Shown here piece after piece: positions 49,778 to 57,747 of a DNA stretch of 64,000 bases. How positions within the stretch are numbered: the stretch's first letter is position 1; each line of letters begins with the position of its first letter. Origin of the DNA: Luteibacter aegosomatissinici. GTDB taxonomy: Bacteria > Pseudomonadota > Gammaproteobacteria > Xanthomonadales > Rhodanobacteraceae. Under the pieces are notes generated by a model. That model saw nothing but the letters and a program-made list of their open reading frames with translations. It had not been told where the DNA came from and ran no database searches. The position numbers and the translations under genes were made by a program. Location of the stretch: contig NZ_CP095742.1 of the NCBI RefSeq assembly GCF_023078495.1, forward strand, positions 2,852,001-2,916,000, given 5' to 3'.

Positions 49778-50383
49778 CTACTTCGAAAGCTCGAGGAGGT
49801 GCCCCTCAAGCGCTCCGTCCCGCATGGCCCGGCGGATGACCGTAAGCGCGCGGCGTCCGTAAGCCACAAGCATCGACGGCGCACCAGCGGTGCCGACCTG
49901 TTCGCCAGCGCCATTTGCAAACTTCAGCCGGCCGCGGATGAAGAAGACACCCGCGACATTGGGGTGGCCAATCACGCTTTCGTGGAACGCGGCAGTGTCG
50001 GTGCGCGCGAACACCAGCAGAAGGCCATTGCCGTGGTCGGCGAGCCTGGCCATCCACTTCCCGCACTCGGCGCCATAGGGCGGATTGACCCAGTAAAAAT
50101 GCGCCGGGTCCCACGGCCGGTTGAAACCGTCCTGGACCTTGTTGAAATGCCGGCGGGCGGTTTTCCAATGGCGCACCGGCGGCGCGCAAGGGTCGACGTC
50201 GGCATTGTGGGGAAGGTCCAGTGCGTCAACCAGCCAGCGGGGGGTGAGCCAGGTCTCCTCGCCCTTCGTGCGGTCATGCTGGAAGCCACGCAGGGGAGCG
50301 GACTTTTGATTGCCCGGCGTGCGGAGCGCCGACGTCCGGGACGGAATGGGAGTGCGTGCAGCGGGTTTGGTGGTGCGGGCCAT
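49778..50383 (-). CDS. Phage-type DNA N6-adenine methyltransferase (Dam)
   Basis: A 201-residue protein of the phage/plasmid Dam family: FQHDRTKGEETWLTPRWLVD, the SAM-site region NADVDPCAPP, catalytic NPPYG (DPPY-type) in FYWVNPPYGAECGKW, and FVFARTDT-like LLVFARTDTAAFHE. CTGGAG precedes the ATG at 50383. Methylates adenine, probably in GATC-like sites. No restriction enzyme is adjacent, so it is a solitary methylase that may protect the element or tune its genes. Confidence 0.85.
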   Translation of the reverse strand: MARTTKPAARTPIPSRTSALRTPGNQKSAPLRGFQHDRTKGEETWLTPRWLVDALDLPHNADVDPCAPPVRHWKTARRHFNKVQDGFNRPWDPAHFYWVNPPYGAECGKWMARLADHGNGLLLVFARTDTAAFHESVIGHPNVAGVFFIRGRLKFANGAGEQVGTAGAPSMLVAYGRRALTVIRRAMRDGALEGHLLELSK

Positions 50384-50616
50384 TGCGTTGCTCCAGTGAT
50401 GGGAGCAATGGAGATTTGAGGGGATCAGCCCCGTGTCGAGCGTGATCCCCGGTGGCCTGACAACCAGGACCCCATCCCGACCGCAGCACAGCAAGGCCAG
50501 CACCGAGGGCGCCGGGAATGCATCCGGGGCTTTCCACGCCACCGGACCCAGGCTGCGCCATCATTCCGCCTTGACGGCAGGAGGCATTTGACTGTTTTGG
50601 GATGCGGGATACCCGC

Positions 50617-51168
50617 TCAAAGCGGGTGGTGAACACGGCCCGCAGACGACTCGGGCAGCTCCTTGAGTAGCACGCGGCGCAAGGTCATGGCGTCCCCCGT
50701 GCGGACGGACTCCATCATGACCTCCAATGCGCTTTCCACCAGGTCCACCCAGGGTGTCCGCGCAGTGTTGTCTTCCCAGGCCAGGGTCACCGCTTCGAAC
50801 GCGGACATGACCCGCACCGCCATGCCCTGCCCCCGCATCGCCTGGACGAGCACCTCCGGGGTGAGGCCCGGGACACACGGCGAGCCGACGACCGCCTCAA
50901 TCGTGCCATCGGCGGCGAGGCGAACGACGAACTCAATGCCCAGCTCAAGCACTTTGACCGGATCGACGGTCTCGGTGCCTTCGCCGGTCGCGACCACGGC
51001 CTCGGCACTGGTCGTGGTGGGCGGATGCTGGCCCATGGCTGCAAAGTGTCTGGTCCCACCGAGGATCACGTTGAGGTCGGTACGCACCCATTCCCAGCGC
51101 ACCTCAAACTCCACGGACTGCGGCAGTGGCACCTTCTCGAATTCCGGGACATCCTTTCCCCTCGTCAT
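50617..51168 (-). CDS. Hypothetical protein, second gene of an operon
   Basis: A 183-residue soluble protein (MTRGKDVPEFEKVPLPQSVE, EFVVRLAADGTIEAVVGSPC, VLLKELPESSAGR). Its ATG overlaps the upstream stop by 4 bp (ATGA), so it is translationally coupled to 51165-51638. Codon use is that of a real gene. No family recognised. Confidence 0.7.
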   Translation of the reverse strand: MTRGKDVPEFEKVPLPQSVEFEVRWEWVRTDLNVILGGTRHFAAMGQHPPTTTSAEAVVATGEGTETVDPVKVLELGIEFVVRLAADGTIEAVVGSPCVPGLTPEVLVQAMRGQGMAVRVMSAFEAVTLAWEDNTARTPWVDLVESALEVMMESVRTGDAMTLRRVLLKELPESSAGRVHHPL

Positions 51169-51775: not shown

Positions 51776-52453
51776 TCAAAGACGGGATTGCGGCCCAGGC
51801 ACCATCCCGGCCGCAGACAGCACACGCGCCAGCCACCCCTGTTCAACGTTTGCGAGCACCGCAGACGGAATGTGGTCGCGGGGGGTCTCGCCATGGACGT
51901 CCGGTGTGTCGAGGGAAAGGCCTGCGTCCATCAAATAGCGGACGGTCACAGGACTATAGGCATAGTGAAGCAAGGTGCGCCCGTTACTATCTATCTGGCG
52001 GAGGTCGCCGTTGGCGGCAACGACTGGCAGGAAACGCAGGCGATCGCGTTCGGCGTCGAGCATCACCGCAAGCGTCAGGGCGGTGACGTGCGTTACTTCC
52101 ATCTCAACACCGTCGCGATTGATGACCGCTTCGCAAACCTGCAAATCAACGGCAGCGCCAAGCTCAATGAGCGCGGTGACCGCCTTGAGATCACGCCTGA
52201 CGAGGGCCTGTGGAAGGCAGTGCGACGGTGCCAGTACACCGTCATCGCCCATGACCTTCCGGAAGAAGTCCTGCATCCGGTCACCGGCTCCCTCAATCTG
52301 GCGCGCCATGCGCCCATAGCCAGCCGCCTCGAGGACCGCCTTCGACGCCTTCGCTTCAAGGTCACTGGGGGAGACCACCATCGGCCCGTTGCGCTCGTCG
52401 AAATCACTCTTGCCCTCCCACGAGGTGGTGGCGTTGGGTGCTGGACTCGACAT
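51776..52453 (-). CDS. Ankyrin-repeat protein, regulon member 1
   Basis: A 225-residue protein: a ~75-residue N-terminal region, then ankyrin-type units (LVRRDLKAVTALIELGAAVD, DLRQIDSNGRTLLHYAYSPV, VRYLMDAGLSLDTPDVHGET). GGGAGATAGG precedes the ATG. It shares its upstream ~110 bp, including promoter and operator, with the ankyrin gene at 55014-55706, and shares blocks such as FLP(V/L)(V/L)A..GDL. Interaction partner unknown. Confidence 0.8.
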   Translation of the reverse strand: MSSPAPNATTSWEGKSDFDERNGPMVVSPSDLEAKASKAVLEAAGYGRMARQIEGAGDRMQDFFRKVMGDDGVLAPSHCLPQALVRRDLKAVTALIELGAAVDLQVCEAVINRDGVEMEVTHVTALTLAVMLDAERDRLRFLPVVAANGDLRQIDSNGRTLLHYAYSPVTVRYLMDAGLSLDTPDVHGETPRDHIPSAVLANVEQGWLARVLSAAGMVPGPQSRL

Positions 52454-52954: not shown

Positions 52955-53539
52955 GTGGGCATCCGCCTTACCCGACGACCATCCGGCTTCTTCAGCCCGC
53001 CGCCGCCGGAGGTTCTGACCGCGTATTTCTCCGAGCTGGGCTATGCCCTCGTGCACAACCCACAGGCGACGTTCGATCACTGGGTCGTTTCTCGTCCGAA
53101 CGCCCGACTCAAAGCACAATCGTTCAGTGACTACGGCGGCCTATGGGTCTGGTGGCTGGAAGAGTCCCTGCGTATTCTCAACGCCGACACCGAATACCGG
53201 CTGCTTTGTAGCTGGTACCGCACAGCCCTTCCAGACGAGCGTGTAGAGATTCTGCAGCGTGCCCGGGAAGATTGCGCCCTGAACCATCCTGCAGCAAAGT
53301 CCCTGCGACCCTGCGGATTCCAGCGACTCGCCTACTGCGAACTGAAAATCGCGGACCTTGATGACACCTGGCTCGAAACTGTCGCTGCCATCGAGGCAGA
53401 ATGCAGGGCCTCCGGCGCGCGATCGAGTGAGCGGCTGTGCATCTACATCGATCGGTATACACAGTTGCAGGCTCGCCAAGCGCTTTCAGATGCAATATCG
53501 GCAGCGAACGCCCCGACCTCACCCCGGAGGCGCCTGTAG
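52955..53539 (+). CDS. Unknown protein, YFS-motif family member 1
   Basis: A 194-residue protein starting at GTG 52955 behind GGGAG. The N-terminal block (EVLTAYFSELGYALVHNPQA, then HWVVS) matches the start of the minus-strand gene at 56766-57353 (LMRTYFSDIGFVLRHQVVAM, RWWLT). The rest has several Trp/Cys residues and helices. No known domain. It is the first of three same-strand genes (52955, 53574, 53840). Confidence 0.68.
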   Translation: MGIRLTRRPSGFFSPPPPEVLTAYFSELGYALVHNPQATFDHWVVSRPNARLKAQSFSDYGGLWVWWLEESLRILNADTEYRLLCSWYRTALPDERVEILQRAREDCALNHPAAKSLRPCGFQRLAYCELKIADLDDTWLETVAAIEAECRASGARSSERLCIYIDRYTQLQARQALSDAISAANAPTSPRRRL

Positions 53540-53573: not shown

Positions 53574-53879
53574 ATGGACCGATTGCGGCAGGCGATGCTC
53601 GGGCAGTATGCAAAACGCGAAGGAATCCCGGGGCCCGTTGAGGCAGCATTCCGGCACACACTCAACCAGATGGCCGCAAGCGGGCTCCTCGCAACCATGG
53701 ACGAGGAAACCATCACCGCCGCAATCCTCGGTGGTTTTGTGGCTACCCTGCCCGTGAGTACCGCTGTCTTCGCGTCTGCGCCGGTCCAAGCGCCGGGCAC
53801 CGAGGCGGAGCCCCAAACGGCCCCCCGGGACAACCGAAGGTGGCTTGGGGCCAATACGACAAGAGTACCGACAGTGTGA
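53574..53879 (+). CDS. Small hypothetical protein
   Basis: A 101-residue protein with GAGGCAACC before its ATG, 34 bp after the previous gene. A helical first half (LRQAMLGQYAKREGIPGPVE, AFRHTLNQMAASGLLATMDE) is followed by an Ala/Val-rich stretch and a Pro-rich tail. Its last 40 bp overlap the next gene's start, suggesting an operon. Confidence 0.62.
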   Translation: MDRLRQAMLGQYAKREGIPGPVEAAFRHTLNQMAASGLLATMDEETITAAILGGFVATLPVSTAVFASAPVQAPGTEAEPQTAPRDNRRWLGANTTRVPTV

Positions 53880-54955
53880 CGGGTTCCGAGGCCCGCCGGG
53901 GAGCCGACTTCGCCCTCGTGGTGTGGGAATCGGAAACCACGGCACGTGTTGCGTTGTTCCAGGCCAAGCGGGTGGAAAAGGCCCCGCCTCCGGATGGGAG
54001 CATGACGCTCGCCAATATCAACACCCGAAAACCGGCGCTATCCATCAATGGTGCAGGGCCGGTTTTCGGTCTGGACGGCGCCCACCGCTTCATTGATATT
54101 CACCGGCGCGCGAAGTTTGTCGCAGGAGGCCCCTGGCGCAAGAGCCAGATGGAATCGCTCCGGCAGACGGGAAAGTGGATCATCATGGCCGATGTGATCC
54201 AGGCCAACGGTGGCAGTGCCGCCGAATTCAGGACCTTGATGGCGCCGCTCGATGCGCCTTCACTTCCAATACGCACTTTCCTCCTCAAGGAAGAATCTGA
54301 GGAGGAGCTTGCGGCCGCGAACGAAAGAGCGCGCGACGCCAACATGGAACGTGAACCCGCACTCGCCGAACTCAATGATTACTATGAAACATGGTCGAGC
54401 AGCCGTCCGCAGCCTGGTGATGATCGACTGACCTGGATTCACTATCTTGCCTACAGCCGGGCCCAACCTGGCACAAAAAAGCCTGACGGAACCGTCGAAC
54501 CGCCCGGGCATTCGGTACTTTGCACAACGCTGACTGACCTTGAAGACTGCATGGGGCGCGAGGCAGAGGAGGGACCAGCCCGCAAGCATGTCGTCGACCT
54601 GGCTACCGTCAACTGCTACCGGTTTATCGATGTGCTCCTCAATGCCTTCGAGCCCATTTCCCAAGACGGCATGCTCGGCTGCCATGGATGGCTACGGGTC
54701 ACGGCCGAAACCGTGCGACAGATGCTGCCTGCGCTGCAGACCCTCGGCGACGTATTCATGACAACCGATAAAGGGGGCGAGGGATTCACCATTACGTGCG
54801 CCGCTGACAGCGGCGCATCGTGTGACGCCAACCCTGCCGGCAACAGACCAGCCGATGAGTTGGCGCAGGTGGCGGTGCCACAGAATGAGGAGACAGCCGC
54901 CCTGGACACGAAAATCCAGCCGACTGTCCCAACGCGACGCCACACGCCAGGGTGA
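53840..54955 (+). CDS. Putative PD-(D/E)XK nuclease-like protein
   Basis: A 371-residue protein from GTG 53840. Residues ~14-45 (TGSEARRGADFALVVWESET, then VALFQAKRVEK) fit the E...GaDf-lv...QaK pattern of the PD-(D/E)XK nuclease fold, with QAK as the third motif. The remaining ~320 residues are an unknown domain with His/Trp/Cys features (LTWIHYLAYSR, GCHGWLRVTAETVRQM). Restriction-like, anti-phage or effector roles are possible. It overlaps the preceding small gene by 40 bp, so that protein may be a partner or antitoxin. Nuclease call is inference. Confidence 0.6.
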   Translation: MAWGQYDKSTDSVTGSEARRGADFALVVWESETTARVALFQAKRVEKAPPPDGSMTLANINTRKPALSINGAGPVFGLDGAHRFIDIHRRAKFVAGGPWRKSQMESLRQTGKWIIMADVIQANGGSAAEFRTLMAPLDAPSLPIRTFLLKEESEEELAAANERARDANMEREPALAELNDYYETWSSSRPQPGDDRLTWIHYLAYSRAQPGTKKPDGTVEPPGHSVLCTTLTDLEDCMGREAEEGPARKHVVDLATVNCYRFIDVLLNAFEPISQDGMLGCHGWLRVTAETVRQMLPALQTLGDVFMTTDKGGEGFTITCAADSGASCDANPAGNRPADELAQVAVPQNEETAALDTKIQPTVPTRRHTPG

Positions 54956-55013: not shown

Positions 55014-55706
55014 TCAAAGGCGCGGGCTTGCCTCCCTCGGCAGCCCCTGTGGAAGGGCCCGTTCGAGATGCATGGCCTCAATGAGACGGGCGTTCTCCTC
55101 GCCCAGGAATTCGGTCACCGGGACGTCGTCTTCATCGACGGCATCGATGCGGACGCCGGCGTCGAGCAGAAATCCGATGACTGCGGGGTTCGCGGCATAG
55201 GCGATGAGCGTGCGACCGTGGGTGTCGACCTGCTGGAGGTCCCCGAACTGCGCGAGCAATGGGAGAAACTCAAGGTTGCCCGACTCGGAGTCGAGCAGCG
55301 TCGCAAAGGCCACGGCCGAGATGTCCGCGACCTCGGGCGGCTCCTCACCTGTCGGGTCACACCCGAAATTCATGCAGTCGAGGTCCGTCCGCAGGCCAGT
55401 ACGGAGCACGGCATGCGCAGCCGGCATGTCCCGCTCATTCAGGGCCGCTTCGAGCATGAAATGGAGGCCCGGCAAGGTCTCGTCCACCTTTTCCTGTTTT
55501 GAACTGTCGCTCTGACGCCGCCTCGGGTCGTCGAACGCATACCCCAGTGACGGGTCAACCAACGTGTAACCCAAAGATTCGAGTTCGTCAGGAGTAAACT
55601 GCTGCTGCAGTTCCCGCCGACCGATGCGGTAGGGACCATGGGCATCACCGAAGCCAGGTGAGTCCCAACCAAGGGTCGTGGGTGGAAGGCGGACGGGGTC
55701 GTTCAC
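55014..55706 (-). CDS. Ankyrin-repeat protein, regulon member 2
   Basis: A 230-residue protein from GTG 55706 (GGAG upstream; the longer open frame runs back through the promoter). Ankyrin units are visible at ALNERDMPAAHAVLRTGLRT, FLPLLAQFGDLQQVDTHGRT and GFLLDAGVRIDAVDEDDVPV. It is a paralogue of 51776-52453 under the same promoter/operator. The two probably act in one pathway or as immunity/adaptor variants. Confidence 0.78.
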   Translation of the reverse strand: MNDPVRLPPTTLGWDSPGFGDAHGPYRIGRRELQQQFTPDELESLGYTLVDPSLGYAFDDPRRRQSDSSKQEKVDETLPGLHFMLEAALNERDMPAAHAVLRTGLRTDLDCMNFGCDPTGEEPPEVADISAVAFATLLDSESGNLEFLPLLAQFGDLQQVDTHGRTLIAYAANPAVIGFLLDAGVRIDAVDEDDVPVTEFLGEENARLIEAMHLERALPQGLPREASPRL

Positions 55707-55728
55707 GGGAGCTCCGGAAAGGGGGACT

Positions 55729-55841
55729 CCTTCCACGTTAACGAGGATCCTGAGGTCGTCAAGGGGGCGCACGGCATGTTGTCCAAGTCGTTTGGCGTGC
55801 ACGCGTTACATGTAACGGCATCCAAGCGTTACGTGTTACGC
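55729..55841 (-). promoter_or_regulatory. Shared promoter/operator, copy 2
   Basis: Near-identical to 52476-52587: -35 TTGACG (55757-55762), 16-bp spacer, -10 TAACGT (55735-55740), start codon 29 bp further. The palindrome CGTTACATGTAACG (55804-55817) and GCGTTACGTGTTACGC (55826-55841) sit at the same distance (41 bp). The two copies form a ~110-bp direct repeat 3.25 kb apart. Confidence 0.72.
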
Positions 55842-55862: not shown

Positions 55863-56255
55863 CTAAAGACGCCTCTGCGCTGCTGTGCTCGGTGCGACCG
55901 GAACGTTTTCGAGCGACTGGCCGAGGACGGCCTTCTCGCCTTTCGCGAGCCACAATGGCCCCTCGCGGCCGGCAACCGCAAGGAACTCGTCACGCTCGAT
56001 GTCACCCCGGCCAATGGCCTCAACGTAGCGTCGGCCGCCGAGTGCGTTGAGCGAGTGCTGCACGATGCCCTCCACCTCCTCCCTCACCTCTTCCATGGAC
56101 GAGAAGAGCCGAGCGGTCACCGTAGGATCCATGTCCACCAGGACACATCGATGCCCGACGATGTCGCCGGAGACGATGTCATCACCGACGAGCAGGACTT
56201 GGCCCGAGACCGCGAGGATTCGTTGCAAGGCGCTCAGCAGGTCCTCGTCTTCCAT
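55863..56255 (-). CDS. Hypothetical protein, regulon member 3b
   Basis: A 130-residue protein (EDLLSALQRILAVSGQVLLV, GHRCVLVDMDPTVTARLFSS, YVEAIGRGDIERDEFLAVAG). Its ATG overlaps the upstream TGA as TGATG, so it is co-translated with 56255-56446. A beta-rich centre and helical ends; family not recognised. Confidence 0.7.
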   Translation of the reverse strand: MEDEDLLSALQRILAVSGQVLLVGDDIVSGDIVGHRCVLVDMDPTVTARLFSSMEEVREEVEGIVQHSLNALGGRRYVEAIGRGDIERDEFLAVAGREGPLWLAKGEKAVLGQSLENVPVAPSTAAQRRL

Positions 56256-56446
56256 CACGGCGTTACCTCGGCTGTGCAGACAGCCACGCCACAGGTGTCG
56301 TGCACCCGCGTGCTGAATGTTTCGATGTCCTCACCGGACAGGGTCTCGATGCGCTCGGCGAGCTTGCGCAGGGTTGAGGCCACTTCGACGCCCTGGCCTT
56401 CGTCAAAGGCACGGTGCTTGAGATCAATGGTCACAGTCAGCTGCAT
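56255..56446 (-). CDS. Small conserved plasmid/phage-type protein, regulon member 3a
   Basis: A 63-residue protein, MQLTVTIDLKHRAFDEGQGV, EVASTLRKLAERIETLSGED. The pattern (strand, acidic Phe turn, 'EVA..LRKLA.R' helix, strand with Asp) recurs in small proteins of phages and integrative elements. AAGGACC precedes the ATG. First gene of the two-gene operon under the third shared promoter. Confidence 0.75.
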   Translation of the reverse strand: MQLTVTIDLKHRAFDEGQGVEVASTLRKLAERIETLSGEDIETFSTRVHDTCGVAVCTAEVTP

Positions 56447-56765: not shown

Positions 56766-57353
56766 CTACAGCGCAGGCGAACGCACATCGAACACAGAGA
56801 GCTGCCCGGCAAGCTCAGCCCAGCCCGCCTTGCGCAGGACGTCCCAGGCAGCGGTCCTCGCGACGGGGTGGGCGTCCCAGGGCCAGCCCCTGGATTCGAG
56901 CTGACCGGTCTCCTTGGAAAAACGCATGGCTGACCACGGCCACCTTGTTTCGTCGACGGGCTTTCCATCCACGTCCAAGGGCGTCCCGTCGAGCGTGTCA
57001 GGGAAGCAGTCCCCTTCCGAGCGGACCCAGCGGTCGAACTCCACACGCTCCTCTGCCGACGCGCCCGCCAGGCGGTTGGCAATCAATGCAACGCAATGGG
57101 CTTCGCGCTCAAAACGCGCCAGGTTGGCGGCCCAGCCGCGCCACAATCTCTGTGAAGTGCGAAAGAAGCCGCCTTCCCCCTCCCCCGAATCCCCTACTCC
57201 ACCGGGCAATGGATAGACTGTTTGATCGTTGTTCGTGAGCCACCAGCGCTCCGGCGCATTCATGGCCACCACCTGGTGCCGAAGGACAAAGCCAATGTCG
57301 GAGAAGTATGTGCGCATCAACCTGGCGGTTGGTGCGCGGCGCGAGACGGTCAT
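56766..57353 (-). CDS. Unknown protein, YFS-motif family member 2
   Basis: A 195-residue protein from ATG 57353, chosen for AGGAG 8 bp upstream over earlier in-frame ATGs. The N-terminus (RLMRTYFSDIGFVLRHQ, ERWWLT) parallels 52955-53539, and total length is nearly identical (195 vs 194). The C-terminal two-thirds differ. A glycine-rich loop (GGVGDSGEGEGG) lies in the middle. Unknown function. Confidence 0.68.
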   Translation of the reverse strand: MTVSRRAPTARLMRTYFSDIGFVLRHQVVAMNAPERWWLTNNDQTVYPLPGGVGDSGEGEGGFFRTSQRLWRGWAANLARFEREAHCVALIANRLAGASAEERVEFDRWVRSEGDCFPDTLDGTPLDVDGKPVDETRWPWSAMRFSKETGQLESRGWPWDAHPVARTAAWDVLRKAGWAELAGQLSVFDVRSPAL

Positions 57354-57747
57354 GGGAGAACTCCTGGTGATTGATGAATCCATCCTGGCGCCCCGCACCG
57401 GGCTGTCAAGGCTCCCGGGAATGGTTCAAATGAACACCTGCAACGCGCAACACGTCATGTCGTGCTTGCGAACCACACTCGCACGCACGGAGATTTGCAT
57501 GGTGACGAACACGCGTGAGAAATCGGGTGTGTCGCGTTTGCCGTCGCCTCGTGATGACCTCCAGACCGAACAGTCGACGCAAGGATGTGCCTGTGGGTAC
57601 AGCGATGTCGGGCCATCACGCCATCATCCCGTGCCTTCGCAACCTTGCGTGGGCGGCCCTTTTTACCGCCAACCGCAGACCCGAACAGGCCGACCGTCCT
57701 GGGCAGCGCCAGTGGTCCGGCACCGATGTCGCCAGCCCGACCGCCCG
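57354..57747. other. Intergenic
   Basis: 394 bp with no supported gene. Confidence 0.4.

Follow-up and report, generated by a model that had tools for sequence, protein, structure and literature searches.

Do two overlapping ORFs in the genome of Luteibacter aegosomatissinici encode a nuclease and a small partner, or do they belong to a single gene? The stretch of 64,000 nucleotides that we analysed (the window; positions 2,852,001-2,916,000) is part of a genome that was assembled as a single contig (4,994,364 bases) and is rated 100% complete. A preliminary description had seen here a 371-aa candidate nuclease overlapped by a 101-aa gene, the two forming an effector/partner or toxin/antitoxin pair. 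As far as the letters go that description is accurate: the ORFs lie in different frames with a 40 bp overlap, SEARRGADFALVVWESETTARVALFQAKR is located near the start of the 371-aa ORF, the opening of this ORF reads MAWGQYDKSTDSVTGSEARRGADFALVVWESETTARVALFQAKR as had been given, and the E...GADF...QAKR pattern is present in it. The coordinates are collected in Table 1.

Table 1. Location of the broken nuclease-like gene and of the W-rich genes in the window.
Feature	Position in window	Strand	Remarks
101-aa ORF	53574-53879	+	N-terminus of the nuclease-like protein; contains the conserved DEE helix
371-aa ORF	53840-54955	+	GTG start; remainder of the protein, comprising its GADF and FQAK strands and its C-terminal domain
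C-rich linker with frame break	53790-53840	+	Homology exits the small frame and re-enters in the large frame
W-rich partner gene, 194 aa	52955-53539	+	First gene of the operon; homologues upstream of the nuclease at other loci
Orphan W-rich paralogue without nuclease	56766-57398	-	Belongs to the surroundings, not to the cassette; partner HMM E 7.2e-4

A protein search of 101 genomes, its own included, returned three further clear copies of the gene in two same-genus genomes: L002 (E 1.1e-84) and L018 (8.2e-30), both in G004, and L003 (2.4e-38) in G007. A weak match from this search (L004, 8.8e-4) proved to be the locus later found again as L019, a copy from Stenotrophomonas geniculata (NZ_LLXT01000097.1, order Lysobacterales) that was the sole relative from a scan of genome contigs. 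Matches L005-L017 (E 0.02-0.45) were not counted as relatives. The comparisons below use nine intact copies from eight genomes (L002, L018, L003, L019, L024, L025, L026, L027 and a copy in L051). G004 has the cassette twice, in diverged copies (L044 6970-8331 and L045 9375-10766) about 18 kb apart and on opposite strands.

The relatives are sporadic within one order. A profile built from four copies found matches in 8 of the 398 genomes of the order, and a wider profile in 5 of 233 genomes of the window's own family and 4 of 297 of the family of G081. Searched with the wider profile, even samples of the class (2/369) and of the phylum (2/398) both times returned only G000 and G081, members of the order. 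No relative was found by tblastn of plasmids and phages with the window protein or with L024, by tblastn of plasmids with L025, or in scans of viral contigs.

In all nine intact relatives a single unbroken ORF spans both parts of the window gene. Against a family model of 349 positions the 101-aa ORF matches positions 2-71 and the 371-aa ORF positions 71-331, consecutively and in different frames (alignment columns 2-107 and 110-589, respectively). The window retains 22 of the 22 residues that are invariant among the nine relatives. Numbered as in L019, four of these fall in the 101-aa ORF (E41, E42, L49 and G50) and 18 in the 371-aa ORF (W75, K80, E90, GADF at 94-97, A111, FQAK at 113-116, Q153, L157, Y207, Y210, C217 and W266). 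Since the conserved Glu pair lies in one ORF and the D and Q-x-K residues in the other, the nuclease-like core itself is split. Past the linker, the tail of the 101-aa ORF matches nothing in any relative. The two ORFs are therefore almost certainly a single gene, interrupted by a frame break in the genome sequence analysed. The 101-aa ORF was rejected as a separate partner, being fused to the rest in 9/9 relatives. That the ORFs overlap as described agrees with the earlier pairing of a 371-aa nuclease with a 101-aa partner or antitoxin, but in every relative the supposed partner forms the N-terminal end of the nuclease and carries part of the conserved core, the Glu pair, which the 371-aa product by itself lacks; we regard such a pair as extremely improbable. 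The ORFs and their overlap thus stand, and the two separate genes do not.

Besides the frame break in the linker we found no other stop or break in the window gene, which speaks for a recent or an erroneous break. By our main reading, either a recent frameshift has inactivated this copy, or the gene is whole and was mis-sequenced. The chance that the gene is whole in the organism, with a sequencing or assembly error in the C-rich stretch, falls somewhat short of even: all 22 invariant residues are kept, no further lesion is present and the frames part within a short C-rich linker. Against an error, the genome was assembled into one contig and its completeness is rated at 100%. It is quite improbable that the split is real and working, either by coupled translation of two polypeptides or by a programmed frameshift that restores the protein. 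Such an arrangement would suit the large ORF's GTG start, which lies within the small ORF, and the retention of conserved residues in both halves, but all nine relatives are unbroken and inspection of the linker by eye revealed no classical -1 slippery heptamer.

What does the reassembled gene encode? The intact relatives are roughly 320-470 aa long with a pairwise identity of 21-39%. Their common layout is a helix with an E-E pair, a GADF strand, a FQAK strand, a conserved Gln and then a C-terminal domain. Ordered acidic, D and (E/Q)-x-K motifs are characteristic of the PD-(D/E)XK nuclease superfamily. Conservation of the motif in homologues had been set beforehand as a check, and E41/E42, D96 and Q114-A-K116 are invariant, in this order, in 9/9 relatives. 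GADF and FQAK therefore represent more than chance, being invariant at such low identity. In DNA terms, a GADF-like pattern matches the window twice compared with a shuffle mean of 0.04, one of the matches being out of context. The proposed PD-(D/E)XK core is thus borne out as a conserved motif, but not as one confined to the 371-aa product.

Searches of profile libraries gave no name to this family. None of eight relatives was recognised by Pfam (chance-level matches only, with no match to PF04471, Mrr_cat), and the same eight had chance-level matches only among the 5027 PADLOC models and in PHROGs. Against the sequences of solved structures the relatives gave no convincing match. Mrr_cat and other Q-x-K members of the superfamily show the same order of helix-Glu, G(x)D strand and Q-x-K strand. 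When the core was compared with Mrr_cat by hhalign, GADF..FQAK was aligned on GGID..VQCK at a probability of only 3.4%, and one of 20 column shuffles scored 20.5 versus 20.9 for the real profile, so that the profile similarity is weak. Moreover, the spacing from D to Q is 13 residues in Mrr_cat but 17-18 in the relatives.

The motifs make it likely that the protein adopts a PD-(D/E)XK-type nuclease fold, and as a predicted nuclease it may be catalytic. It is unlikely, in our view, that the protein is something other than a nuclease, or a nuclease that serves a mobile element's own DNA processing. An AlphaFold2 model of the S. geniculata relative from a three-row alignment has a pLDDT of 37, too low to count as evidence, so that the alpha-beta-beta-beta-alpha core fold of the superfamily stays a prediction; an integrase-like gene adjoining the cassette in L046, L050 and L051 would suit the alternative. 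Against it, the E, D and Q-x-K residues are invariant throughout and stand in the proper order, and around the two G004 copies the stretches examined have defence genes as neighbours and no called integrase.

If the 101-aa ORF is no partner, does the nuclease-like gene have one? The true partner neighbour is the W-rich gene directly upstream (Table 1). W-rich homologues lie directly upstream of the nuclease at L002, L003 and L018. An HMM built from these three and the window partner, which is a fair test for all sequences except the four that built it, was run against 493 ORFs of six loci from other genera. It gave only two matches, L048 7645-8196 (2.5e-15) and L051 7921-8595 (1.6e-9), each directly upstream of the nuclease, and none among 2181 ORFs from 18 control stretches of the window's own genome. 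(An earlier partner profile had been built with two genes of the window and with a number of the loci that it later matched, and its E-values are partly so by construction.) The partner stop and the nuclease start are separated by 34 nt in the window and by 28-42 nt across six copies. The partners are roughly 175-250 aa in length. A W-rich gene precedes the nuclease in the window and in 5 of the 8 intact copies with upstream DNA; the L019 copy starts at a contig end and is hence outside these eight. No partner was found beside the nuclease at L047 and L050 with the partner HMM, and L049 has a 174-aa ORF upstream that is unproven as a partner. The operon is therefore common, not universal.

For the W-rich protein itself, a two-row AlphaFold2 model reached a pLDDT of 60 and shows a helix at the N-terminus and then three strands; Foldseek with this model found no structural match (best E 0.63), hhalign of the partner against Mrr_cat gave nothing useful, and three partners had 0 matches to the 5027 PADLOC models. 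Its role may be one of sensing or regulating.

W-rich paralogues also occur as orphans with no adjoining nuclease. Besides the one in the window, found by the partner HMM among 489 window ORFs, we observed them at L045 14881-15462, L075 6696-7487, L076 6149-6919 and 13208-14047, L077 6497-7147 and L078 5654-6172. Their E-values range from 1.7e-6 to 1.2e-3, and several are in the same region of the window's own genome as well as in two other same-genus genomes. The 2181 control-stretch ORFs contained none.

With the W-rich gene in the place of the antitoxin, a toxin-antitoxin reading takes on a different form: an addiction module of mobile elements with the nuclease as toxin. This is the main rival mechanism, and we hold it to be rather unlikely. 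As in type II toxin-antitoxin pairs, a small gene comes first and an effector second after a short gap, and the company of mobile elements would fit. However, the cassette differs from such pairs in its large effector, in copies for which no partner was found (L047 and L050) and in the absence of a match to any known toxin or antitoxin family (Pfam and NCBIfam for the window proteins, Pfam for the relatives). The copies without a W-rich gene weaken this alternative, and both G004 copies lie among defence genes, which also counts against it.

The surroundings of the intact copies were inspected for mobile elements and defence genes. Named by eye from sequence, tyrosine-integrase-like proteins are found near the cassette in L046, L048, L050 and L051, and MobA/MobL-like relaxases in L048, L050, L051 and L052; the integrase-like protein of L046 had no Pfam match at 0.01. 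Genes for tRNA are present in L045, L046 and L048. Among hand-picked neighbours, PADLOC names PDC-M54A, bSEFIR, LmuA and ThsB around the two G004 copies, PbeC and DndC in L049, SIR2, HerA and a methyltransferase in L051, and PDC-S49 in L046. An unpicked comparison was made of 79 called neighbours within 6 kb of the nine copies and 79 control genes, drawn from 112 called mid-stretch in the 18 control stretches. At E up to 1e-10 the neighbours matched 131 PADLOC families and the controls 2, where 131 is not a count of proteins, since PADLOC models overlap, and where the controls come from one genome and the neighbours from eight. The neighbour counts are lower bounds, because the simple gene caller misses genes of unusual composition. 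This comparison places the cassette in defence islands; the called genes around the copy in L047 do not read as one.

Three features of these loci may be recorded in their own right. Directly after the second G004 nuclease copy is a 382-aa gene (L044 5771-6919) with a weak match to PD-T7-5 (E 3.9e-4), which may be a second nuclease-like defence gene. In the same stretch (L044 11115-13797) an insertion sequence of two ORFs, resembling IS3 by eye, seems to interrupt a bSEFIR-type gene, whose parts on the two sides match positions 35-109 and 170-354 of the PADLOC bSEFIR model. Lastly, a 103-aa ORF behind the integrase of L050 (7161-7994) ends, by eye, like the C-terminus of that integrase (..KFYP), as though insertion of the segment had produced a second copy of this end.

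Taking together the single ORF of the relatives, the conservation of their motifs, the operon and its genomic company, all of which are observed, we suggest that a nuclease-based candidate defence cassette of two genes, so far undescribed, is probably present in the window in broken form; its fold and function are predictions. The intact relatives would encode a PD-(D/E)XK-type nuclease-like protein, usually as the second gene behind a W-rich gene. The cassette would be carried along by integrative and mobilisable elements and accumulate in defence islands, where it would most likely act as an anti-phage or anti-plasmid module. In such a module the W-rich protein may sense, license or regulate, and the nuclease may cut the DNA (or RNA) of the invader or of the cell. 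It is the location of the W-rich and nuclease pair on mobile elements or among virus-defence genes that makes it a candidate defence system, and a defence function is, on balance, what we would expect of it. The two-gene nuclease systems of PADLOC, such as Lamassu and SIR2-HerA, likewise are short operons, located in defence islands, that pair a putative nuclease with another protein, but the eight nuclease relatives and three partners match none of the PADLOC models.

The preliminary description had further placed the nuclease next to a Dam methylase and ankyrin genes. The methylase is real: the Dam-type gene at 49778-50542 matches Pfam Dam at E 3.7e-9, the only Pfam match of the window proteins above a cut-off, and also fits NCBIfam phage_N6A_met below the cut-off. 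It lies, however, 3 kb away and on the other strand. The supposed ankyrin genes at 51776-52453 and 55014-55802 are weakly ankyrin-like, with best Pfam E-values of 0.0017 and 0.19, both below curated cut-offs. By eye, the Dam-type methylase and the gene reading MTRGKDVPEFEKVPLPQSVEFEVRW.. (window 49778-51168) recur together in another same-genus genome (L076 9143-11741), likewise in the company of TIR-like proteins and of W-rich and ankyrin-like genes.

A C-terminal RL tail is common to island genes of this genus that are otherwise unlike, of the W-rich, ankyrin-like and roughly 130-aa families. Genes with this tail are found in the window (51776-52453, 52955-53539, 55014-55802 and 55863-56258) and also in L044-L046, L075, L076, L078, L090 and L091. 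The tail ends 21 of 120 called island genes versus 0 of 113 controls (Fisher 4e-7, the tail having first been noticed in these same loci). In 20 further stretches of the window's own genome, RL or KL ends were found on 8 of 342 genes, and 4 of these 8 are among the 34 genes of L090 and L091, 16-56 kb beyond the window end. The tail may act as a signal for sorting or as a tag for docking. A highly speculative extension would make the W-rich partner one of an expanded, fast-diverging genus repertoire of interchangeable sensors or adaptors that couple through a shared tail to effectors, this nuclease being one example, and would imply a modular, combinatorial immunity as opposed to a fixed two-gene cassette.

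In summary, the locus illustrates how a single broken gene can be mistaken for a 'toxin-antitoxin' pair of overlapping ORFs. Defence by nucleases encoded in islands is in itself a known kind of system; the nuclease family and the pairing described here are absent from the profile libraries searched, and none of the titles found in literature searches named anything like them. Absence from these libraries, together with rarity (8/398 genomes of the order), would account for the family having been missed so far. If our reading is true, an undescribed nuclease family and its partner would join the candidate defence systems, and the intact copies allow direct functional testing in laboratory strains of E. 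coli.
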